Shown: positions 1 to 21,969 of the stretch, one piece after another
Layout: every line of letters starts with the position of its first letter
How positions within the stretch are numbered: position 1 is the first letter of the stretch
Assembly (NCBI RefSeq): GCF_003977755.1
Contig: NZ_RQWN01000002.1
Location: forward strand, 558,001 to 622,000
Source: Haloterrigena salifodinae
GTDB lineage: Archaea > Halobacteriota > Halobacteria > Halobacteriales > Natrialbaceae
Direction of reading: 5' to 3'
Length of the DNA: 64,000 nt
Notes under the pieces: generated by a model
The model's database searches: none
Seen by the model: only the letters and a program-made list of their open reading frames with translations
Told to the model about the DNA's origin: nothing
Translations under genes and position numbers: made by a program

Positions 1-306
1 CAGTAGCGCCGCTTGCTCGGGTGTGAGACCGTAGCGGCCCGTCTCAGGATCGTAGGTGACGTATCCGCCGGCCGCTCCCGCATTGAGCCACTCGGTGACG
101 TACGGTTCCACGGTGTCGGTCCGCTCGGCCAACTCGGCAGGCGAGACCGGTCCGCCGTCGGCTAACGCCTCGTAGAGGCCGAGCCTGTCGCCGATAACGA
201 TCAGCGGCGCGTAGTAGGCCACTCCTAGTTCGTTGACGGCCATTCCGACGAGTTCATCCAACTGTTCTTCGTCGACCGGTTCGTCGGCGGTAGTCGGTAG
301 TGCCAT
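1..306 (-). CDS. N-terminal part of a class I SAM-dependent methyltransferase (runs off the window)
   Basis: The start ATG is at 306-304 on the minus strand, and the frame stays open for 102 codons to the window edge. The visible protein has an acidic N-tail and then a winged-helix-like domain (from about residue 25, AYYAPLIVIGDRLGLYEAL, followed by SPAELAERTDTVEPYVTEWL). That arrangement is typical of the dimerisation/wHTH domain before the Rossmann methyltransferase domain in Rv2258c-like and O-methyltransferase-like proteins. The SAM-binding domain itself lies outside the window, so the substrate is unknown. The gene is divergent from the FilR1-type regulator at 458, with about 150 bases of shared upstream DNA. 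Confidence 0.75.
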   Translation of the reverse strand, partial: MALPTTADEPVDEEQLDELVGMAVNELGVAYYAPLIVIGDRLGLYEALADGGPVSPAELAERTDTVEPYVTEWLNAGAAGGYVTYDPETGRYGLTPEQAALL

Positions 307-457
307 ATCTGGACAGTGGACGGCGAACGTGTTGGCCTCATTCACGGAGATTCCGTTTCACGGACTGAACGCCGTTTCAGTGCGTGAGAGTGACTGTCTC
401 ATCACGTACGAGATAGAGCTACTACCGTTGCTACCCTATCTCGAGCTAGTGACTGAC

Positions 458-1354
458 ATGGACGTTCCCGAAGACGACCAACTCACGTTCAATCCACCGG
501 CATCGCCGATCGTAGAGGCGGTCATGCAGAACGCGCGGAACCAGCAATACCTCGGTAAGCGCCTCAACGCGGCAGGCACCCGCGCCGACCCGGACCATCT
601 CGGCGACATCGTCCGGCACGGGCCGGTTCTCGAGGCGCTCCGAGCGGAGCCCCTGGATCGCCGCGAGATTGAGGATCGCCTCGACGTTTCGCGGGCGACG
701 AGCCACCGCCTGACGAGGTGGCTCGACGAACAGGGGTTCGTCGAGAAGACGGACGGTCGGTTCCGGTTGACGGGTCGCGGCGAGGCGGTCACCGACGAAG
801 TTCTCCGATTCGAGGCGAACGTGAGCACCGTCCACCGGATGGGACCGCTGTTGGACGTGATCTGTCCGCACCACGCTGAGTTCGCCATCGAACCGATGAT
901 CGATTCGACCGTGACGGTCGCTGAACCGACCGTCCCGGACCGACCTGCCGAGCGGTTGATCTCGCTCGTCGGCGAGTCGGAAACGTTCCGGGGGTTCAAC
1001 ACGACGCATCTGGCGCCGCTGATGATCGGCGAGTTCTACCAGCGAGTATTTGACGGCACCGAAGCTGAACTCATTTACCCACCGGACATCGCCGAGAGGC
1101 TGCGTGAAACGTATCCGACCCGCGTGACTGAGGCGGTCGATCGTGGACGGTTGACCCTCCGGACTCGCGAGAAACTCCCGTACGGACTCGCGCTCTTCGA
1201 CGAACGCGTCGGACTCGGCGGATACGACGACGACACAGGGCTGATGCAGGTGTTCGTCGACACGGACTCGCCCATGGCCCGCGAGTGGGCCGAACGGGTC
1301 TACGCGTCGATTCAGGCGGACTCTACGCGACTCGACAGTCGGATAGAGCAGTGA
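458..1354 (+). CDS. Winged-helix transcriptional regulator with FilR1-type sensor domain
   Basis: This is a 298-residue protein. A winged helix at about residues 45-105 (LDRREIEDRLDVSRATSHRL, wing around FRLTGRGEAV) is followed by a C-terminal domain of about 180 residues of the kind found in the methanogen regulator FilR1 and its many haloarchaeal paralogues (formerly DUF1724). The family binds DNA, and the C-terminal domain is presumed to sense a ligand that is rarely known. The ATG at 458 is chosen because homology-like sequence begins there and the upstream in-frame 75 codons look non-coding. It is divergent from the methyltransferase gene, a plausible target. A perfect hairpin follows the stop. 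Confidence 0.8.
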   Translation: MDVPEDDQLTFNPPASPIVEAVMQNARNQQYLGKRLNAAGTRADPDHLGDIVRHGPVLEALRAEPLDRREIEDRLDVSRATSHRLTRWLDEQGFVEKTDGRFRLTGRGEAVTDEVLRFEANVSTVHRMGPLLDVICPHHAEFAIEPMIDSTVTVAEPTVPDRPAERLISLVGESETFRGFNTTHLAPLMIGEFYQRVFDGTEAELIYPPDIAERLRETYPTRVTEAVDRGRLTLRTREKLPYGLALFDERVGLGGYDDDTGLMQVFVDTDSPMAREWAERVYASIQADSTRLDSRIEQ

Positions 1355-5043: not shown

Positions 5044-8000
5044 GCAGCGAGGACCCGGCGAGCCACGTCGACGACGTGGAAACCGAACGGCGACCGACCG
5101 CCGTCGAGAAGCTCCCTTCGGTGCCGAACGTGTCCGATCCGCGGCCGAGTACGCCGCTCACGGAGCAGTTCGAGACCGGGACCGCCAACGACCCGGACGT
5201 CCGCTCCGGAGACGGCAAGGACGGAATGACCCACCTCACGGTCGACGGGACGCCCGTCTCGGTGCCGCCGGGCTCGACGATCATCGACGCGGTCGAGTCC
5301 GTCGAACCGGCCGACGAGCTGGCCGCGCTCTGTTACTACGACCGCGACACCGAACAGGCCGACGCGATCGGGCCGCGCGGCGAGTGTCGGACCTGCACCG
5401 TCCACACGGAAGAACACGGACTCGTGACGTCCTGCTCGCATCCCGTCGAGGAAGGGATGACGGTCCGAACCGACGAGGACGACGCAGCCGAGGCGCGCGA
5501 GGTCAACCTCGACCTGCAGCTGTCGGATCACAACCTTCGCTGTACGACCTGCGGCCAGAACGGCCGCTGCGAACTGCAGGACACCTCCATCGAGCAGGGC
5601 GTCGAGGAACCGCGGTGGGGCGTCTTCGAGGACCGCGACCAGTACGAACCGCTCGACGACACCTCGCCGGCCATCCAGATCGACCGCAACAAGTGCATCC
5701 TCTGTAACCGCTGCGTCGAGGCCTGCAATGACGTGCAGGTCGAGGGCGTTCTTCGGATGGAGGGCAACGGCCAGGACACCCGCATCGCCTTCCAGAACGG
5801 CGAGGAGACCTTCGACGAGTCCACCTGCGTCTCCTGTGGCCACTGCGCGACTGTCTGCCCGACCGGCGCCCTGGTCGAGCAGGGGCTGACCGACGCCGCG
5901 ACGATCCCCCTGCCCGGCTTCACCCAGGAGAACTCGATCGGCAAGGTCCTCGAGAGCCCGAAGGCCGAAACGGCCGACCAGACGGAGGCGCCGAACCGTG
6001 ATCTCCCATACGACGTCGAGGGCCGAGCGAAGCCCGAGGAGGACCTCTCCGGCGTCGCCCGCTTCATGTCGATCGCGAGAGCGCGCGCCGAGGACTCGAA
6101 GCGGCAGATGAGCCACACCTTGAAGGAGGTCGGCGACCGCGCCCTCGAGGAGTTCGAACACGTCTCCGAGGGGATCGCCAGCGAGGCGATGCCAGCCGGC
6201 CAACTGTTCAACGTCGCGACGACCATCGGCGACGCGCGCCTCTCGCGAATCGAGAAGGCCGAGACCACCTGCAACTACTGCGCCGTCGGCTGTCGGTTCG
6301 AACTCTACGGCAAGGACGGCGAAGTGCTCGGCGTCCGGCCCGCCGACCCGGACTCGGCGCCGGCGAACGACTTCTCGACCTGCGTGAAGGGGAAATTCGG
6401 CTACGACTACGTCGACGCCGACGATCGCCTCGAGAAACCCCTCGTTCGAAAAGAGAACGCGCCGGACGGCCCGGTCGGCCGCGAGGGCTTCCGCGAGGCG
6501 TCGTGGAAGGAAGCCATCGAGCGCGTCTACGAGGGGCTCTCGGAGATCCGCGACGAACACGGCAGCGAGAGCCTCTCGGTCATCTCTTCGTCGAAGACGA
6601 CCAACGAGGAGAACTTCTTGAACCAGAAGTTCGCCCGGCAGGTCCTGGGGACGCCCCACGTCGACAACTGCGCGCGGCTCTGTCACTCCTCGACGGTGGC
6701 GGCCCTCCAGCAGACGGTCGGCTACGGCGCGATGACCAACCGGATCAACGAGGACATCGGGGAGACCGACTGCTATCTCATCACCGGCTCGAACACGACC
6801 GAGTCCCACCCCGTCCTCGCGACGCGGATCAAACAGAACGTCCGCGACGGGGCGGATCTCATCGTCATCGATCCCCGGGAGATGGGGCTGGCCGAGCACG
6901 CCGACCAGTACATCCGGACGACCCCCGGCGAGGACGTGGCCTGGATGAACGGGATGATCCGGTACATCATCGAGAACGACCTTCACGACGAGGAGTTCAT
7001 CGAGGAGCGGACCAAACACTTCGACGAACTGAAGGAGAAGGTCGAACCGTTCACGCCCGAGCAGGTCGAGGAGCTGACGGCCGTCCCCGCCGAGGAACTG
7101 AAGAAGGCCGCCGAGACGATCGCCACCGCCGATACCTGCATCTTCGGCTGGGCGATGGGGCTGACCCAGCACACGACCGGGACGCGCAACGTGCTGGCCA
7201 TCGCCGACCTCGCGCTGGTGACGGGCAATCTCGGCAAGCCCCGCGCCGGGCTCTCGGCGTTCCGCGGCCAGAACAACGTCCAGGGCGGCGGGGGCGACAT
7301 GGGACCGGCCCCGCACAGGCTTCCGGGGTATCAAGACCTCGGCGACGAGGAGGTCCTCCAGAAGTTCGAGGACGAGTGGGGCGAGCGCCCGCCGAACGAC
7401 GTCGGGCTCCGCCTCCCGGAGCAGTTCCACGCCGTCAACGACGGCGACCTTCAGGGCATGTTCATCATGGGCGAAAACCCCGTCCTCTCGGAGCCGGACC
7501 TCGACAACGCCGAGCGGGCGCTGACGAAGCTCGACTTCCTCGCCGTCCAGGACATCTTCCTGACCGAGTCGGCCGAGTACGCCGACGTGGTGCTCCCGGC
7601 CGCCTCCGCCGCCGAGAAGGACGGGACCTTCACCAATACGGAGCGGCGCATCCAGCGGGTCCGACCCGCCGTCGACTCGCCGGGGAAAGCGAAACCGGAC
7701 CAGGAGATCCTCATCCAGCTCGCCCGGCGGTTCGGCTACGACTGGGAGTACGACTCGGCGGCCGACGTGATGGACGAAATCAATTCCCTCGTCCCCATCT
7801 ACGGCGGCGTCACCTACGATCGACTCGAGGAGGAGACCAAAGGAATCCAGTGGCCCTGCTTCGACGAGGACGATCCCGGCACGCCGTACCTCTACGAGGA
7901 CGAGTTCAACTTCGAGGACGGGAAGGCCCGTTTCGTCCCCGCCGACTACGCCAAGCCGCCGGACATGCCCGACGAGGAGTACCCGATCACGCTCTCCTCG

Positions 8001-12081: not shown

Positions 12082-13014
12082 TTATTCGGCCGGCTGGCCG
12101 ATGTGTCGCCCTTCCTTGGGTTGGAATCCGCCCTCGAGCGTGCGAACCGGATAGGGGATGTCGATCCCCTCCTCGTCGAAGCGCCGTTTGACCGCGGTGA
12201 CGTACTCGCCGCGCGTTCGGACGAAGTCGGCTCGAGACGGGTTCGCGATCCAGAACCGCGACTGGAGGCCGACGTCGGAGTCCCCGAGTTCCGTCAGTCG
12301 GACGGAGGGTGCGGGGTCGTCCATGATGTCGGGGTGGCGCTCGGCTTCGTCGACGATGATCTCGGTCGCCCGTTCGATGTCGTCGTCGTAGCCGATCCCG
12401 AAGACGAACTTCAGTCGGAGTTTGTCGGCGTCGACCGGGTTCTTGAGTACGTTGTCGGTGAGCGCCGAGTTCGGCACCGTGAGCAACTCGTTGTCGAACG
12501 TCCGGACGCGAGTCACGCGGAGGCTGATGTCCTCGACGACGCCGGCGTAGTCGCCGTTGTCCCACTCGATCCAGTCGCCGATCCGGAACGGCTTGTCGGT
12601 GTAGATGAACACGCCCGCGACGAAGTTCGAGATCACGTTCTGCATGGCGAGACCGATCGCCAGCGCCCCGGCCGCCGCGATGCCGGCCATCGACACGAGG
12701 AAGTTTCCGAAGCCGGCGAAACCGAAGGCGACGGCGATTCCGAAAAAGAGCACGCCGAACCGCGATAACATCAACAGCGGGTTCTTGGCGTGTTTGTCGA
12801 GGCCCCGTCTGTCGAGCGCCCGTCGGATCAGCGGCAAGACGACCGTCCGACCGACGAACCAGATGGCGACGACGGCGACCGCGAACCGGAGCACGCTCGC
12901 AGCGCTCGCGGCTAGCGCGCCGTCGGCGATTCCCGCCTCCTCGAGCGTGCGACCGATCGGACCTAACCCGTTCGCCTGTGCGAGAACGCGGGCGGGATCG
13001 GCCGCGGGGCTCAT
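12082..13014 (-). CDS. mscS: MscS-family mechanosensitive ion channel
   Basis: A 310-residue protein with three membrane helices. TM3 is the pore helix, rich in Gly/Ala (SMAGIAAAGALAIGLAMQNV), followed by the MscS beta domain (DKPFRIGDWIEWDNGDYAGV, then VPNSALTDNVLKNP) and the C-terminal alpha/beta domain. The family releases solutes on hypo-osmotic shock, a clear need in brine. The ATG at 13014 overlaps the stop of the YhbY gene by ATGA, so the channel is translated with the RNA-processing genes upstream. Confidence 0.9.
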   Translation of the reverse strand: MSPAADPARVLAQANGLGPIGRTLEEAGIADGALAASAASVLRFAVAVVAIWFVGRTVVLPLIRRALDRRGLDKHAKNPLLMLSRFGVLFFGIAVAFGFAGFGNFLVSMAGIAAAGALAIGLAMQNVISNFVAGVFIYTDKPFRIGDWIEWDNGDYAGVVEDISLRVTRVRTFDNELLTVPNSALTDNVLKNPVDADKLRLKFVFGIGYDDDIERATEIIVDEAERHPDIMDDPAPSVRLTELGDSDVGLQSRFWIANPSRADFVRTRGEYVTAVKRRFDEEGIDIPYPVRTLEGGFQPKEGRHIGQPAE

Positions 13015-13259
13015 CGATAGAAGACGGCAGTGTGTCCGCGCGTCTCGATCAGTTCGGCGTTGACGCGGTCGGCGAGATCGGCCGCCTTCTCCTCGGTCGA
13101 ACTGCCGGCCCGCGCCGCGCGGAGGAGTTTGACCTTCACGAGATCGCGGTCGTCGAGCTGGTCGTCGAGTTCGTCGACGACCGCGTCGATACCGCTCTTG
13201 CCGACCCAGACGGTGACGTCGAGGTCGTGTGCCTGCTGTTTGAGGGCTTGCGTATCCAT
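13011..13259 (-). CDS. YhbY/CRM-domain RNA-binding protein
   Basis: An 82-residue single CRS1-YhbY (CRM) domain: ALKQQAHDLDVTVWVGKSGI, with the conserved VGKSG loop that is the GxxG RNA contact, and the C-terminal ELIETRGHTAVFYR strand. The family associates with pre-50S ribosomes or structured RNAs. It lies in one operon between RNase P subunit 4 and mscS. The ATG at 13259 is preferred to the GTG two codons upstream. Confidence 0.9.
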   Translation of the reverse strand: MDTQALKQQAHDLDVTVWVGKSGIDAVVDELDDQLDDRDLVKVKLLRAARAGSSTEEKAADLADRVNAELIETRGHTAVFYR

Positions 13260-13366
13260 AGCCACCTCTACCCGTCCGAGCCGTTTGAATCTTCTCGAAT
13301 CGGAACGGTAGGGAAACGGGCACTCTCGAGGCCCTGACTGGGCCCCGTGCGTCGGCGTTTCGAACC

Positions 13367-13648
13367 CTACTGATCTTCGTACGGATACCGCGTGTGGGCC
13401 CCGCAGTCGCAGGTGATCACGACGTGGCCGTCCTGCAGTCGAACGCGGGCGTTTCGGCCGGGCCGAAGGTACGCGTCGCAGCGGTCGCAGGTGAAGCGTC
13501 GAAACGTCCGCGGCAGCGTGAGCCGGTTTCGTTCCGCCACGCGGCGCGCGAGGCGAACGTAGTAGCGGGCCCGATCGTGCTCGTCGTCGGCAGCCGCCGC
13601 TCGAGCCAGGTCGTGGAGGCGCTCGATCCGTTCGGCGGCGACGTCCAT
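13367..13648 (-). CDS. rnp4: Ribonuclease P protein component 4
   Basis: A 93-residue Rpr2/Rpp21 homologue: an N-terminal helical hairpin (AAERIERLHDLARAAAADD, ARYYVRLARRVAERNRL) and a zinc ribbon with C54, C57, C80 and C82. It is part of the archaeal RNase P holoenzyme that trims tRNA 5' ends. A good Shine-Dalgarno (GGGAGG) lies four bases before the ATG at 13648, which decides the start against longer frames. It is first in the rnp4-yhbY-mscS operon. Confidence 0.92.
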   Translation of the reverse strand: MDVAAERIERLHDLARAAAADDEHDRARYYVRLARRVAERNRLTLPRTFRRFTCDRCDAYLRPGRNARVRLQDGHVVITCDCGAHTRYPYEDQ

Positions 13649-13870
13649 ACCCTCCCTTTCGGCGGTTCGCCTATTGATGTTGTGTTCTCGCAGTCGATGA
13701 TCGAGTCCGATCGCCGACGAACGCGGTCGCGGCGTCGTCGAGATCCGGCCCGTCCGTCCGTTCTGTCCTGCGTCATCAATTGCCATACATTGCATCCTCC
13801 AGCCGGAAATACGGCCGATTGGAAAAGTTTTTGACCGTGCCCCATAGCCGATTGTAGTACGCAATATTGT

Positions 13871-13876
13871 TATATA
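13871..13876 (+). promoter_or_regulatory. TATA box and Shine-Dalgarno of the solute-binding protein gene
   Basis: TATATA lies 34 bases before the ATG at 13905, in an AT-rich patch between divergent genes. GAGGTG at 13889-13894 lies about ten bases before the ATG and matches the 16S tail. Confidence 0.5.
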
Positions 13877-13904
13877 TCAACAGCAAAGAGGTGTAATAGA
13901 CTGA

Positions 13905-15728
13905 ATGAATTGTAACCCAACCGATCCTGTTGATGGCGTCGATCGACGCTCCGTTCTAGCTGCGGGCGCAGCCGGGCTCTCGCTCTCTCTGAGCGGCTGC
14001 ATCGATACGGTCAGACGCGTCGTCGATCAGGACGGTACCGACCAATTGTCGCTCTCCATCGTGACAGTCCCCGCGGACGCCGACCGAGAAAGTATCCGGA
14101 TCGCCTATCACCTCGAGTCCCACCTCGAGTCGCTCGGCGTGGACGTGACCCTCAAGGCGCGCTCTCCTACCGACTTCCTCAAAACGGTCCTGATCGACCA
14201 CGACTTCGATATCTACGTCGGTCAGCATCCCGCCGATTACGATCCGGACTTCCTCTATGAAGCCCTTCACTCCACGTACGCAAACGAGGCCGGCTGGCAG
14301 AACCCCTTCGGGTTCGACAGCATGGCCTTCGACACCCTGCTGGAGGATCAACGCCGGGCCGATGGTGAGAAGCGCAAGCAACGCTTAGCAAATGTACTCC
14401 GCGGTGTTGCAGACGAGAAACCGTTCGATCCGATCTGTCGTCCCGACGAGATCCGGGTCGCCAACACCACCCGCTTCGACGGCTGGGGTCAGGGTCACCT
14501 CGCGACGCGACGCGGCTATCTCGGCCTCGAGCCAGATGCCGGCGTCGAGCGATTGAACGCGCTCGTGACCGACGCCAGACCGTCGGTCAACGTCAACCCG
14601 ATCTCGGCGACGGTCCGGGAACGGGGGACGGTCGTCGACCTGCTGTACGACTCGCTCGGCACCGTCGTCGACGGCGAGGTCCTGCCGTGGCTCGCCGACT
14701 CCTGGGAGTGGGTCACGGGTTCCGAAGCGAACGAGGCTGACGCCGAGGAGACGACCGAGCCGACCCGACCGACGACGACCGCGCGGGTTTCGCTCCGCGA
14801 GGACTGTCGGTTCCACGACGGCAAACCGGTTACCGCGGCGGACGTCGAGTTCACCTACCAGTTCTTCCAGGATACCGTACTCGGCCGCGCGTCGCCGTCG
14901 CCGCCGCCCCGCTATCGCGGTCACGCGAGCGCGATCGACGATATCGAAATCGAGGACGAGTACACGCTGCGGATCACTGCGGCCGCCGGCACGGACGTCT
15001 GTGAACGCGCGTTTACCGCCCCGATCCTCCCGAAACACGTCTGGCAATCGGAACTCGAGGACCGGCTCAGCAACTCTCAGGAGTTTTCGGCGCCGCAAGG
15101 ATCCTGGAGTCTGGTCACCAGCGACTCGATCGATCCGACCGGGAGCGGTCCCTACCAGTTCAAGAACAATTCCGAACGGGACCACCTCACGCTCGAGCGG
15201 TTCAACGATCACTTCACGCTGCGCGAGGACGTCGAGAGCGACCACCTTCTCGCGCCGCTCGTCGACGAGCTCCGATTTACCGTCGATCCCGGCAGCCCGT
15301 CTTCCATCTCGCGGGTCGCCAGCGGCAACGCCGACGTCACGTCGTCGATGCTCGAAGCGTACTCGCTCAGCGACATTCCCGAGAACGACCCCGACGTCGA
15401 ACGGCTCGAGTCGTCCTCGTGGACGTTCTACCACATCGGGTTCAACGCGCGGGCGCCGCCGTGTAGCAACCTCCACTTCCGACGCGCGATCTGTCGGCTG
15501 ATCGACAAGGAGTGGATCGCGAGCGAAGTCTTCGGCGGTCACGCGGAGCCGCTCGCGGCGCCGGTGACCGAGGAGTGGACGCCCGATGATCTCGCGTGGG
15601 ACGGCGCGGACCCCGAGACGCCGTTCGCCGGTACCGACGGGACGCTCAACGTCAACGCGGCGCACGACGCGTTTCAGGCGGCCGGCTACTACACCGACGA
15701 CGAGAATCGACTGCAGGGGCGATACTGA
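13905..15728 (+). CDS. Circularly permuted family 5 solute-binding lipoprotein
   Basis: A 607-residue Tat-exported lipoprotein (DRRSVLAAGAAGLSLSLSGC) of the peptide/nickel-binding SBP family 5. The order of the fold is rotated. Residues about 47-205 match what is normally the C-terminal lobe (SLSIVTVPADADRESIRIAY, LESLGVDVTLKA, HDFDIYVGQHPADYDPDFLY, FDTLLEDQRRADGEKRKQRL). Residues about 227-600 then carry the usual N-terminal beginning (NPISATVRERGTVVDLLYDS, PWLADSWEW, FHDGKPVTAADVEFTYQFF) and run through to DAFQAAGYYTDDENRL, which in relatives directly precedes the segment found at the N-terminus here. No ABC permease is adjacent. The stop overlaps the ATG of the PAP2 gene, so the two are coupled. 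Ligand unknown. Confidence 0.85.
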   Translation: MNCNPTDPVDGVDRRSVLAAGAAGLSLSLSGCIDTVRRVVDQDGTDQLSLSIVTVPADADRESIRIAYHLESHLESLGVDVTLKARSPTDFLKTVLIDHDFDIYVGQHPADYDPDFLYEALHSTYANEAGWQNPFGFDSMAFDTLLEDQRRADGEKRKQRLANVLRGVADEKPFDPICRPDEIRVANTTRFDGWGQGHLATRRGYLGLEPDAGVERLNALVTDARPSVNVNPISATVRERGTVVDLLYDSLGTVVDGEVLPWLADSWEWVTGSEANEADAEETTEPTRPTTTARVSLREDCRFHDGKPVTAADVEFTYQFFQDTVLGRASPSPPPRYRGHASAIDDIEIEDEYTLRITAAAGTDVCERAFTAPILPKHVWQSELEDRLSNSQEFSAPQGSWSLVTSDSIDPTGSGPYQFKNNSERDHLTLERFNDHFTLREDVESDHLLAPLVDELRFTVDPGSPSSISRVASGNADVTSSMLEAYSLSDIPENDPDVERLESSSWTFYHIGFNARAPPCSNLHFRRAICRLIDKEWIASEVFGGHAEPLAAPVTEEWTPDDLAWDGADPETPFAGTDGTLNVNAAHDAFQAAGYYTDDENRLQGRY

Positions 15729-16576
15729 TGTTAGCCGAGGTACTGACGCAAGTGGCGATCGTCATCGGGTTCGTCCTCCCGGTTGCGACCGGAGTGTTCA
15801 TCGGCCGGGAGCGACTGTCGCAGACGGTTTCGGAGCTTCGTCCGCGGCTACGGACGTCCGCACCGGCGCTCCTGCTTCTGGGCTCCGTACTGGTTCTCAA
15901 CCGGTATATGCGCCAAAATGAGCCGAACGTCGGGTTCTACATGACCGAGACGATCCGCTCGATCGAGGGCGAGTTCGTCCTGATCTTCCAGGACATCGCG
16001 ACCCCGCTGCTCACCGAATACTTCACGGCGAGCTACATCTACGGCTACACGTTCCTGTTGCTCTTCACGCCGCTAGCGTACTTTGCGCTCTCGGATACCA
16101 CGATGTTCCGCCGTCTGCTGACAGCCTACTCGTTGAACTACGCGCTCGGCGTCGTCCTGTACGTGCTGGTCATCGCGTACGGGCCGCGGAACATCCTCCC
16201 CGAGTTCGTCGCTGAGACGATGCTGTACGACAACAATCCGAAGTACCAGTACCTCACTGGGGAGGTCAACCGCAATACCAACGTCTTCCCGTCGCTTCAC
16301 ACCTCGCTCTCCGCGACGGTCGGCATCTTCGCCTACTACACGCGCGATGAGTATCCGAAGTGGTTCCCCGTCGCCGTCTTCATCGCGATCAGCGTCATCA
16401 TCTCGACGATGTATCTGGCGATCCACTGGGGGACGGACGTCTTCTTCGGGTTGGTCCTCGCGAGCGTCTGCGTCGCCCTCTCCAATATGCTCGTCGGCCG
16501 CTGGTCGCTTACCGACCTCTTCGATCGGCTGGACGACGACTCGCTCGACGCCGTCCGCGACCGGCTGGGACGCTAA
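15728..16576 (+). CDS. PAP2-superfamily membrane phosphatase
   Basis: A 282-residue protein with about six to seven membrane helices and the PAP2 motifs of the inositol phosphorylceramide synthase-like branch: NVFPSLHTSLSATVG (motif 2, catalytic His) and STMYLAIHWGTDVFFGLVLA (motif 3, His and Asp). These enzymes hydrolyse or transfer phosphate groups on lipid phosphates at the outer face of the membrane. It starts on the last base of the preceding solute-binding protein gene. That pairing suggests the two proteins act on the same extracellular or lipid-linked substrate, though this is inference. Confidence 0.85.
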   Translation: MLAEVLTQVAIVIGFVLPVATGVFIGRERLSQTVSELRPRLRTSAPALLLLGSVLVLNRYMRQNEPNVGFYMTETIRSIEGEFVLIFQDIATPLLTEYFTASYIYGYTFLLLFTPLAYFALSDTTMFRRLLTAYSLNYALGVVLYVLVIAYGPRNILPEFVAETMLYDNNPKYQYLTGEVNRNTNVFPSLHTSLSATVGIFAYYTRDEYPKWFPVAVFIAISVIISTMYLAIHWGTDVFFGLVLASVCVALSNMLVGRWSLTDLFDRLDDDSLDAVRDRLGR

Positions 16577-16802: not shown

Positions 16803-17177
16803 TCAGTTGTCCTCGAGCGCGTCGGCGATCCGCTTGAGTGCGCGGGTCTGGTCGCGCATCTCGTCGCGGAGCTGGCGGACTTCGCGGACAAGTTCCTCGT
16901 TGCCGACGCTCTCCTCCTCGCGACCGCCGGGGCCGCCGCCCATGCCGCCGGGGCCGCCCGGGCCGCCGCCCATCATTCCGCCCATCATCTGCGCGAAGGG
17001 GTTGCCGCCGCCGCCCATGCCGCCGGGGCCACCGCCGCCGCCGAACGGGCTCTCGGGCGGCTCGCCCTCACCTTCGCCCTCTTCGGCGCGTTTCTCGCGG
17101 ATTTCCTCGACTCGCTCCCGGAAGGATTTCTCCTCGCCCTCGTCGCCGTTGGCGTCGGATTCGTTTTCGTCGGACAT
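16803..17177 (-). CDS. Gly/Met-rich conserved haloarchaeal protein with C-terminal coiled coil
   Basis: 124 residues: an acidic N-terminus, a charged helix (SFRERVEEIREKRAEEGEGE), a low-complexity middle (about residues 47-88) made almost only of Gly, Met and Pro, and a C-terminal helix with heptad spacing (ELVREVRQLRDEMRDQTRAL). No catalytic motif is visible. The ATG at 17177 gives the acidic start normal for such proteins. It is divergent from the zinc-ribbon gene at 17305. Function unknown; the layout suggests an oligomeric or scaffold-like protein. Confidence 0.65.
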   Translation of the reverse strand: MSDENESDANGDEGEEKSFRERVEEIREKRAEEGEGEGEPPESPFGGGGGPGGMGGGGNPFAQMMGGMMGGGPGGPGGMGGGPGGREEESVGNEELVREVRQLRDEMRDQTRALKRIADALEDN

Positions 17178-17304
17178 ACCCTCGGATTCAGGATCGCCGC
17201 GGAAAAGGATTGCCATGTTTTCGACTTCGAGCGCCGCCGGCCGATCGATCGCGTTCGGCCAGTGCGTGCACAAGAGGGAACTGGCGTAGCGTGGTACGGC
17301 ATCT

Positions 17305-17649
17305 ATGCCCGAGCCCACCACCGACCGAGAGCCGATCGTCAGCGAGGGACGGTACGCAGTCGTCGCCGCCGCCGATGCCGACGCGGCCGACTACTGGTTC
17401 GTCGCCGACGACGGCGACCACGCCGTTCCGCTCGAGGACGCGACGCTCCACGACGCCGCGACCGTCCTCTCGCGGGTTCGAAACATGCGGACCGATCCCG
17501 AGAGAACGGGGACGGAAACGGCGTCGGGCGACGGCACGGAACTGACCTGCCACGACTGCGGCGAGACGTGGACCTACACCGGGTCGGACGAGCACGCGGC
17601 CTGTCCAAACTGCGAGACGGAGGTCCCGGTGGAGGGAATCGGGCCGTAA
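17305..17649 (+). CDS. Conserved haloarchaeal protein with C-terminal zinc ribbon
   Basis: A 114-residue protein. An N-terminal beta-rich domain (EGRYAVVAAADADAADYWFV) with an acidic surface is followed by a zinc ribbon with two CxxC pairs, CHDCGETW and CPNCETEVP. It probably binds one zinc ion. No enzymatic motif is seen. The gene stands alone on the plus strand between two unrelated genes. Confidence 0.7.
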   Translation: MPEPTTDREPIVSEGRYAVVAAADADAADYWFVADDGDHAVPLEDATLHDAATVLSRVRNMRTDPERTGTETASGDGTELTCHDCGETWTYTGSDEHAACPNCETEVPVEGIGP

Positions 17650-19535: not shown

Positions 19536-19731
19536 GCCCGCGGGTTCGGGCTGGGCGCAAATAGGCGTAGCGCTCCCGGTCCTCGAGAGCGCGCCGGATC
19601 GAACGCAGCCGCAACTGACCGCGGTTACGGCCGCTGTTACTCTGTGCGCGTTCGTGGGTCATGCTCGGGCTACGTACGGGTACGGCCCGGATTCCAGACG
19701 TTCACAGCCGACGTACCTTACAGTATACAAA

Positions 19732-19739
19732 TTATATAA
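19732..19739 (+). promoter_or_regulatory. TATA box of the phoD-like gene
   Basis: TTATATAA in an AT-rich patch, 38 bases before the ATG at 19777. It is the only AT-rich stretch in the divergent region shared with the DUF2797 gene. Confidence 0.5.
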
Positions 19740-19776
19740 GCTATTGTTGGAATCCGGTGCGGAAAGTATCGCAGTC

Positions 19777-21969
19777 ATGACGGACACACACGTTGACGAG
19801 CGAACCGAAGCGGGGACGGACAATCGACGGGCGTTTCTGCAGACGATCGGGCTGGCAACGACGGCCGGCTTGATGGGTACGGCGGCCGGAGAATCGGATT
19901 CGGCAGAGTCGACGACCGCGAGTAGCGACGCCGACCTCGTGTCGCTCTCTCACGGCGTCGCGGTCGGCGACGTCACCGCCACGACGGCGGTCGTCTGGGC
20001 GCGAGCGGCCGAGGCGGCGACGATCCACGTCGCCTACAGCCCCGACCAGTCGTTCGACCGCGTCGGCTACGATCGGACGACCGTCGACGCCGAGACCGAC
20101 ACCACGGGCCAGCTCCGACTCGAGTCCCTCGAGTCGAACACGCGCTACCGATACCACGTCTGGGCGACGGCGGGGGAGACCGCCTACCGGCCGCTGAACG
20201 GTCGAACGGGCGGACCGAAGGGACGCAGCCCCGGAGGGTCGAAAGGGAAAGGAAAAGGGAACGACGACCATCCCGGAAAGGGTCGCGGACCGAAGAAGCG
20301 ACCGGACGAGGACGGTCGCGGCGACGGCGATCGGATCGCCGACGCGATCCCCGAGGCGGTCGAAAGCGGGACGTTCGTCACGGCCCCGGCGCCTGACGAC
20401 GAGGCGGCCGTCTCCTTCGCCTGGAGCGGCGACACGTGGGGCTATGGCGACGACCCCGTCGAACCGCCGTTTCCGGGGCTGCGGACGATCGCCGAGTGCG
20501 ATCCGGACTTCTTCCTCTACCACGGGGACACGATCTACGCCGACGCGCTGACGCCGGCCGGCAAGGTCACCGAGGACACCCCGATTGACGAGGCCCTCGA
20601 GATCTACCGCGGGAAGTACAAGGAGATGCGCGATCCGCCGGCCGAGGTCGCCGAGCAGACTAACCTGCAGGAACTGCTGCAGTCGACGTCGGTCTACACC
20701 GTCTGGGACGACCACGAGGTCATCAACAACTTCGCGGGGCCGATCGAGCCGCTGATGCCCGAGGGGCGACGGGCCTTCCGCGAGTACTGGCCGCTGGACC
20801 GTGACGACGACGCCGATCCCGGCGAATCAAACCGGTTCTACGACTCCTTCCGCTGGGGGAAACACGTCGAACTGTTCCTCATCGACACGCGCCAGTACCG
20901 CGATCCGAACGTCGATCTGGACTCGAAGACGCTGCTCGGACGGGAGCAACTCGAGTGGCTGAAGGGAGCGCTCGCCGACTCCGACGCGACGTGGAAGCTC
21001 CTCGCCTCGCCGGCCCCGCTGGGCTATCCCTCCGACTCGTGGGCGACCGAGGCGGACCCGACCGGCTACGAGGCGGAACTGCTCGAGGTCGTCGAACACG
21101 TCCAGACGGAGCCGGTTTCGAACCTGGTCGTCGTCGCGGGCGACGTCCACAAGTCGGTCGTGAGCGCGTACGACCCGGACGACGACGGCGAGTTCGAATT
21201 CTTCGAGGCCGTCGCCGGACCGCTGGGCGCACCCGCGGGCGAGCCCGACGATCTTTATCCCGCGCTCAACCCGACGGAGTTCTTCGCGAAGGGTGAGTAC
21301 CGGAACTTCGCCACCGTCGACGTCGCCGAGTCGGGCGAGACCCTCACGATCGGCATCTACGACGAGCACGGGACCGAACAGTTCACGAAGACGATCAGCA
21401 CGTCCGATATCGACGCCGCGGCCGATCCCGAGAACCCGGACCGCATCGAGAGCACCTTCGACGAGGACGCCGAGGGCTGGCTCGTCTCCCAGAACGGCGG
21501 GAGCAACCGGCCGGTCTACCACGGGACCGGCGGCAACCCCGGCGGCCACATCGGCGACGCGGAAAACAAGGGCGGCGTCGCCTGGTACTACCAGGCGCCG
21601 TTCGAGTACCTCGGCGACCGCGAGGCGTTCTACGGCGGGACCCTCTCGTTCGATCTCCGGCAGGAGCCGGCCGACCAGCAGTTCGACGCCGAGCCCGTCG
21701 AGGGCGGCGACGTGCTGTTGCAAAGCGGCGATCGCAAACTCGTCTACGAGTTCCGCGGCGCCGACGACGACCCCGGCGAGGAGTGGACCTCCTACGAGGT
21801 GTCGCTCTCGGCCGACGAGCCCTGGATCGGTCTGACGAGCCGGGAGCCACTCGCTACCGAGGAACGGTTCCGCGAGGTCCTCGCCGACCTCGAGGTACTG
21901 CGCATCCGCGGCGAGTACCGCTCCGGCGACGACACCAGCTACCTCGACAACGTCGTCCTGACGAAGTAG
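19777..21969 (+). CDS. phoD: Alkaline phosphatase D-like exported protein with laminin-B-like C-terminal domain
   Basis: 730 residues. It has a Tat signal (NRRAFLQTIGLATTAGLMG), an N-terminal Fn3-like PhoD_N domain (VAVGDVTATTAVVWARA) interrupted by a Gly/Lys-rich linker (residues about 145-180), and then the PhoD metallophosphatase domain with its metal ligands (SFAWSGDTWGY, DFFLYHGDTIYAD, TVWDDHEVINNF, VVVAGDVHKS). Residues about 560-730 are a beta domain with APFEYLGDREAFYGGTLSFD, the pattern of laminin B (IV-A) domains. PhoD enzymes cleave phosphodi- and monoesters outside the cell. The extra domain probably binds polymer or surface material. The start at 19777 is set by the Tat signal and the upstream TATA box. 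Confidence 0.88.
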   Translation: MTDTHVDERTEAGTDNRRAFLQTIGLATTAGLMGTAAGESDSAESTTASSDADLVSLSHGVAVGDVTATTAVVWARAAEAATIHVAYSPDQSFDRVGYDRTTVDAETDTTGQLRLESLESNTRYRYHVWATAGETAYRPLNGRTGGPKGRSPGGSKGKGKGNDDHPGKGRGPKKRPDEDGRGDGDRIADAIPEAVESGTFVTAPAPDDEAAVSFAWSGDTWGYGDDPVEPPFPGLRTIAECDPDFFLYHGDTIYADALTPAGKVTEDTPIDEALEIYRGKYKEMRDPPAEVAEQTNLQELLQSTSVYTVWDDHEVINNFAGPIEPLMPEGRRAFREYWPLDRDDDADPGESNRFYDSFRWGKHVELFLIDTRQYRDPNVDLDSKTLLGREQLEWLKGALADSDATWKLLASPAPLGYPSDSWATEADPTGYEAELLEVVEHVQTEPVSNLVVVAGDVHKSVVSAYDPDDDGEFEFFEAVAGPLGAPAGEPDDLYPALNPTEFFAKGEYRNFATVDVAESGETLTIGIYDEHGTEQFTKTISTSDIDAAADPENPDRIESTFDEDAEGWLVSQNGGSNRPVYHGTGGNPGGHIGDAENKGGVAWYYQAPFEYLGDREAFYGGTLSFDLRQEPADQQFDAEPVEGGDVLLQSGDRKLVYEFRGADDDPGEEWTSYEVSLSADEPWIGLTSREPLATEERFREVLADLEVLRIRGEYRSGDDTSYLDNVVLTK

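Follow-up and report, generated by a model that had tools for sequence, protein, structure and literature searches.

The locus studied here raises two connected questions: whether the gene at 13905..15728 encodes a solute-binding protein (SBP) of family 5 whose chain is circularly permuted, and what such a protein does when the next gene encodes a PAP2 membrane enzyme and not an ABC permease. The window, i.e., the whole stretch of DNA analyzed, comprises 64,000 nucleotides of a Haloterrigena salifodinae contig, and the following of its features bear on these questions.

13871..13877, plus strand: TATATAT, seen in the sequence 28 bases before the ATG, which we take to be a candidate promoter element by analogy to archaeal biology.
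13905..15728, plus strand: permuted family-5 solute-binding lipoprotein, 607 aa plus stop, ATG to TGA (PF00496; AlphaFold2).
13905..14030, plus strand: Tat-type signal peptide with twin Arg at residues 14-15 and lipobox Cys32 (RR at 14, SGC at 30-32).
14037..14534, plus strand: moved block, residues 45-210, i.e., the second half of the C-lobe and the old C-terminus, now N-terminal (phmmer; fragment model on 1xoc 355..520).
14535..15725, plus strand: residues 211-607, i.e., the old N-terminus, the N-lobe, and the first half of the C-lobe, now C-terminal (VIA-align on 1xoc 18..357).
15666..15725, plus strand: new C-terminus, AAGY...L turn (residues 588-607), the permutation point (sequence; end of the B profile).
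15728..16576, plus strand: PAP2_3 integral membrane enzyme, 282 aa (PF14378, 59.4 bits against a cut-off of 27), its ATG overlapping the SBP stop.

SBP_bac_5 (PF00496) is the sole Pfam-A family in the SBP gene, where it is found as two stretches with a score of 147.6 bits (cut-off 32.4). The better one aligns protein residues 258-600 with positions 1-283 of the 368-position profile, and in a whole-genome scan the profile end absent from it (287-362) was matched further upstream within the same ORF. A phmmer search against the PDB likewise aligned query residues 290-556 with residues 72-308 of Lmo0135 (5isu) and query residues 36-193 with residues 327-480 of the same chain. The canonical chain order of SBP_bac_5 (cluster C) is absent from the window SBP, the two blocks being exchanged. 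The RR and SGC motifs, presumably a Tat signal and a lipobox, recur in the subfamily: RR precedes the domain in 114 of 114 distinct members, and a lipobox-like motif is found in 110 of the 114.

The exchange is also visible in predicted structures. The AlphaFold2 model of the window SBP, for which 102 window and locus proteins were aligned as input, reaches a mean pLDDT of 91.4 and a pTM of 0.89, with values below 50 only in residues 1-42 (the signal peptide), and the best 50 structural matches listed for the whole model are all of the family-5 type. Model residues 211..607 superpose on AppA (1xoc) 18..357 (VIA-align: Z = 21.9, 331 residues, 3.0 Å) and on NikZ 1..328 (Z = 22.4), and residues 215..607 on DppA 1..346 (Z = 20.1). 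Residues 43-220, modelled by themselves, gave a weaker model (pLDDT 84.1, pTM 0.62) that lies on AppA 355..520 (Z = 8.2, 162 residues, 5.4 Å), on CtaP 355..523 (Z = 8.2), and on OppA 350..517 (Z = 8.0); all 50 matches listed for this N-terminal part are solute-binding proteins hit in their C-terminal third, and none of them places it on a different domain. These Z values are modest when taken alone, and their weight lies in their pointing to the same family and to exactly the part that the rest of the model lacks. As modelled, the two pieces add up to a single normal chain with its blocks exchanged. The permutation point falls in a turn within the C-lobe, the old termini meet near residue 210, and the predicted structure keeps the usual two lobes of the family, as two complementary pieces. 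The first-pass annotation had described a clean permutation, with a mature start in the segment that normally follows the AGY...L turn and a chain end at that turn, and both ends agree with the superpositions and with the position of the AAGY...L turn. It had, however, put the normal N-terminal start at residue 227; the motif NPISATV starts at residue 231, and the structure moves the start to about residue 211.

Two unrelated pieces joined by chance, or a misassembly, could in principle mimic such a protein. We consider this vanishingly improbable, because 119 of the 125 genomes of the same family match the window SBP at E ≤ 1e-40, in addition to which the N-terminal part is placed on the C-terminal third of solute-binding proteins in every listed match and a separate pair of proteins, described below, shows the complete exchange. 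Internal duplication was also considered and rejected: a comparison of the N-terminal part with the rest of the protein, where an unpermuted second copy might have been contained, gave a best E of only 3.6. With sequence, two complementary superpositions, and fixation in a clade in agreement, the window protein is almost certainly a circularly permuted family-5 SBP, as the first-pass annotation had held; that annotation had not noticed the PAP2 partner gene, the permuted relatives linked to ABC genes, or a second, independent permutation.

We investigated how widely the permuted order is distributed. With the window SBP as query, 179 of the 293 sampled genomes of the order match at E ≤ 1e-15, some of them through a more distant, ABC-linked kind, and a sample of the phylum (294 genomes, E ≤ 1e-8) includes 22 matching genomes outside the order, where none of the matches listed starts before query residue 241; these lie in the section that ordinary SBPs share. 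We then scored the order of two profiles in each ORF, profile A representing the moved part and profile B the rest. In the first batches (duplicates included), 182 ORFs were permuted and eight normal, and further normal-order ORFs were found among later controls, so the method detects both orders. A search of plasmids returned colinear relatives of the window SBP in Alphaproteobacteria, and all four alphaproteobacterial SBPs that were fetched, from Nitratireductor, Roseomonas, Ketogulonicigenium, and Microvirga, have the permuted order. Among the matches listed from 151 Chloroflexota genomes, one (from G637, fetched as L243) is permuted, and the others cover the common part only, or little more. 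The window genome itself has 16 SBP_bac_5 ORFs, of which four are clearly permuted, one (L171, at about 947 kb of contig C2) receives a weak permuted call with an A score of 30 and a long branch, and 11 are not permuted, seven of these having been judged by ORF layout alone.

Permutation has arisen more than once. Trees built on the A and B blocks separate the PAP2-linked proteins from all others by a single branch (support 100 and 99). These trees omit duplicates and L147, L052, L074, and L171 (L171 being restored in the support-99 tree), and the PAP2 group was randomly thinned, to 29 rows at first and to 12 in the support-99 tree, in whose 12-row list L058 and the L063-type rows without a neighbor were not all drawn; alignment A3 retains 102 of the 109 rows of A1. 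L165, from the window genome, and L154 are also permuted, with a B block that ends at profile position 311 or 309 compared with about 356, so that their break precedes the helix ending in AGY. These two group with L208, an unpermuted protein of another haloarchaeon (support 100), and L165 and L208 align completely in exchanged order, residues 246-553 with 97-405 (47% identity) and residues 52-240 with 412-598 (41%). L165 (L165:1459-3123, minus strand) lies outside the window, at about 391.8 kb of contig C2 of the window genome (G000), in a full ABC operon, and its unpermuted sister is at L208:1798-3606 (minus strand). A single origin of all permuted proteins (the main group plus L154 and L165) is rejected (log-likelihood lower by 234, AU test: P = 4.85e-06), while monophyly of the main permuted group is not (AU test: P = 0.279). 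With L165 and L154 placed beside an unpermuted sister and the single clade rejected, there were at least two independent permutations. In the free tree, six unpermuted rows stand beside the PAP2 group (support 82), and they may reflect a third origin, a reversal, or an error of the tree. L243 groups with L171 on long branches, and its permutation is possibly another origin; this Chloroflexota protein (L243:3989-5722, plus strand) ends at a GGYKV turn and is followed by DppB, DppC, and two ATPase genes.

Permuted SBPs differ sharply in their genomic setting. In the window subfamily, PAP2 is the next gene in 107 of 113 distinct loci, with nothing recognized in the remaining six and DppB next door in none of the 113, and a median of 11 bases separates the SBP stop from the start of the PAP2 match. 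For the remaining permuted SBPs, an Opp/Dpp permease gene comes next in 25 of 28 loci (DppB in 24 and DppC in one), with nothing recognized in three. The counts are of distinct loci for which 1 kb or more of downstream sequence was available; the subfamily was delimited by a B profile score above 340, a cut set after the neighbors had been seen, with L070, L136, and L147 assigned by hand, and the 113 loci, which were picked from match lists best first and then spread over families, are not a random sample. In the window, the last base of the SBP stop codon (TGA, 15726-15728) is also the first base of the PAP2 ATG (15728). Haloferax gibbonsii has the order SBP-PAP2, on a plasmid, and Natronorubrum bangense SBP-PAP2-SBP-PAP2; in Halarchaeum sp. 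a permuted SBP precedes two permease genes and one for an ATPase, and in the window genome another permuted SBP stands first, ahead of DppB, DppC, and two ATPase genes. The permuted SBPs of Alphaproteobacteria and Chloroflexota also belong to Opp/Dpp ABC operons of the ordinary kind.

Several further neighborhoods were recorded. One haloarchaeal locus carries tandem permuted SBPs (L161:3944-5773 and 5580-7751, plus strand) followed by DppC and an ATPase gene. Two alphaproteobacterial permuted SBPs (L181:5887-7572 and L182:5923-7599, both plus strand) lie in operons that, by annotation, also carry genes for an M28 or M20 peptidase and for hydantoinase/oxoprolinase, a setting suggestive of peptides or cyclic peptides as substrates. 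Upstream of the window SBP and facing away from it are genes for an MscS-type channel (12082-13323, minus strand) and RNase P component 4 (13367-13864, minus strand), both with profile scores below the curated cut-offs; the Natronorubrum bangense record has the same two neighbors plus a YhbY gene. Downstream, 16803-17321 (minus strand) is a Gly/Met/Pro-rich acidic ORF with a charged tail and no NCBIfam match, similar ORFs lying near the same locus in L039 and L088, and 19654-21969 (plus strand), a few kb beyond the pair, encodes a PhoD-like alkaline phosphatase (75.2 bits, below the cut-off of the model).

The PAP2 partner is likely an active enzyme, because the residues of its PSLH (P, S, L, H) and HW..D (H, W, D) motifs are kept in 107 of 108 aligned partners. 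Its nearest solved sequences are weak matches, to PgpB (E = 3.5e-4) and AUR1, an inositol phosphorylceramide synthase (E = 0.14). SBP and PAP2 distances over 108 pairs are strongly correlated (Mantel r = 0.893, with none of 999 permutations as high), and at seven loci with two units the choice of the nearer paralogue agrees between the two genes in 402 of 406 comparisons, which are mutually nonindependent. The SBP and PAP2 genes stay together through descent and duplication as a conserved unit, which no ABC permease gene adjoins. A search of 17 genomes found a strong PAP2 relative (best E of 1e-57 or better) in all 13 that have the SBP and in none of the four that had been chosen for lacking it; two of these four (G127 and G135) have no PAP2 relative, and the other two have distant ones only (G002, E = 3e-16; G013, E = 2e-14). 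Solitary PAP2 relatives without this SBP occur in about seven of the 17 genomes (e.g., at G000:C3:578635), and a quick look at the neighbors of six solitary copies showed no neighbor common to them. G146 has the SBP with no adjoining PAP2, yet PAP2 relatives are present elsewhere in that genome. At L257:2755-4978 (plus strand), in the window genome, a solitary PAP2_3 relative lies just downstream of a Tat-type multicopper-oxidase-family lipoprotein.

Tandem duplication of a gene followed by loss of the outer parts is a general route to circular permutation. The ancestor of the window SBP would have served an Opp/Dpp ABC importer, as most other permuted relatives still do, and a tandem duplication of its gene with loss of the two outer parts would have produced the permuted chain. 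In the window lineage the SBP would then have lost its importer and become an extracytoplasmic receptor subunit of the PAP2 enzyme, binding a solute in its cleft and delivering it to the active site of PAP2 on the outer side of the membrane; alternatively, closure of the SBP on its solute would switch the enzyme on. The enzyme itself would be a phosphatase or phosphotransferase acting on a lipid, a lipid-linked carrier, or the bound solute. Gene linkage, the conserved active site, and co-inheritance all favor the PAP2 protein as partner, and the SBP has probably exchanged an ABC importer for a PAP2 membrane enzyme; that it now serves as a receptor subunit of that enzyme is an evenly balanced proposition. 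The mycobacterial lipoprotein LpqW provides a precedent for an SBP scaffold employed outside transport. A more tentative suggestion is that the permuted SBP lipoprotein and PAP2_3 could be the two subunits of a lipid phosphatase or phosphotransferase that depends on ligand and works on the outer side of the haloarchaeal membrane, a new, ABC-free use of the SBP scaffold across much of the order. Since permuted relatives remain in ABC operons, the permutation was probably tolerated and not the cause of the change.

The main objection to a receptor subunit is that linkage and co-inheritance are also expected from a plain operon. Moreover, six of the 113 loci are without a recognized PAP2 gene, solitary PAP2 relatives exist, and an SBP is not necessarily encoded beside its permease. 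The window SBP could then still serve an ABC importer encoded elsewhere, with the cotranscribed PAP2 enzyme processing the same nutrient, e.g., by dephosphorylating it ahead of import. The cell does have permeases that work with permuted SBPs, because the window genome holds one of the Dpp-type operons in which 25 of the 28 other permuted SBPs are found; against this stand the absence of DppB next door at every subfamily locus and the retention of the PAP2 link through duplication and across families of the order, and we consider such an orphan SBP somewhat unlikely. A pure sensor, which would bind a solute and only regulate envelope lipid synthesis through PAP2, with no handover of substrate, would be a close analogue of LpqW, which has the SBP fold by a structural match obtained here and which, in the part of PMC3229680 consulted, channels a glycolipid intermediate in mycobacteria. 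This we rate as improbable; regulation and substrate delivery are not separated by the evidence, and the receptor-subunit reading allows both.

A search of the open-access literature, a scope outside which most subscription papers fall, yielded neither a permuted family-5 SBP nor a pairing of an SBP with PAP2. PMC8407117, taken up in this connection, concerns ATP-grasp in the part consulted. Nor is there a solved permuted chain among the structure matches listed (57 of 57, the best 60 of 102, and the best 60 of 105). The only natural permutation of a binding protein that the open-access search found in print belongs to another SBP fold class, and here it is family 5 (the oligopeptide/nickel type) that is permuted, in an archaeal order, in Alphaproteobacteria, and in one Chloroflexota protein among the matches listed. 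The L165/L208 pair, standing before and after the event, makes the permutation testable. The annotated plasmid entries examined label permuted SBPs plainly as 'ABC transporter substrate-binding protein', a name that hides both the permutation and the genetic tie of the window subfamily to PAP2, not to a transporter. A permuted SBP whose gene is tied to that of a PAP2 enzyme, and not placed beside an import pump, suggests that an old component of transport has been given another role, and if the pairing is functional, it would give the SBP scaffold a new kind of partner and offer a handle on haloarchaeal envelope lipid chemistry.

Compared with AppA, DppA, OppA, and NikZ (family 5, cluster C, PF00496), the window SBP shares the profile, the fold in two pieces, and the character of a lipoprotein or exported protein, but its block order is exchanged and its subfamily has no importer genes alongside. 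The neighboring gene shares its profile and the PSxH and H...D motifs with the PAP2_3, PgpB, and AUR1 phosphatases and phosphotransferases, although its sequence matches to PgpB and AUR1 are weak; to our knowledge, these enzymes have no SBP partner. The title of a 2006 paper on LpqW reportedly speaks of a hijacked SBP scaffold. LpqW (2grv_A) matches model residues 213..607 (Z = 19.7, 327 residues) and is not permuted, its matched chain range starting at its own N-terminal part. Like the proposed window SBP it carries the SBP scaffold on a lipoprotein, and in the consulted part of PMC3229680 it acts in envelope lipid synthesis; its membrane partner there is a mannosyltransferase pathway and not PAP2, with a link to PimE from genetics. 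The closest precedent for the permutation itself is TpMglB-2 (Tp0684, proposed cluster Bc), described in the accessible portion of PMC4990184 as a natural circular permutation of an SBP lipoprotein with the fold retained, for which its authors discuss tethering as a reason. The two proteins are alike in being circularly permuted SBP lipoproteins that keep their fold (predicted for the window SBP); unlike the window SBP, TpMglB-2 belongs, according to the same portion of PMC4990184, to the Type I sugar-binding class, is still in an ABC locus, and has a different permutation point, three N-lobe strands having moved to the C-terminus.
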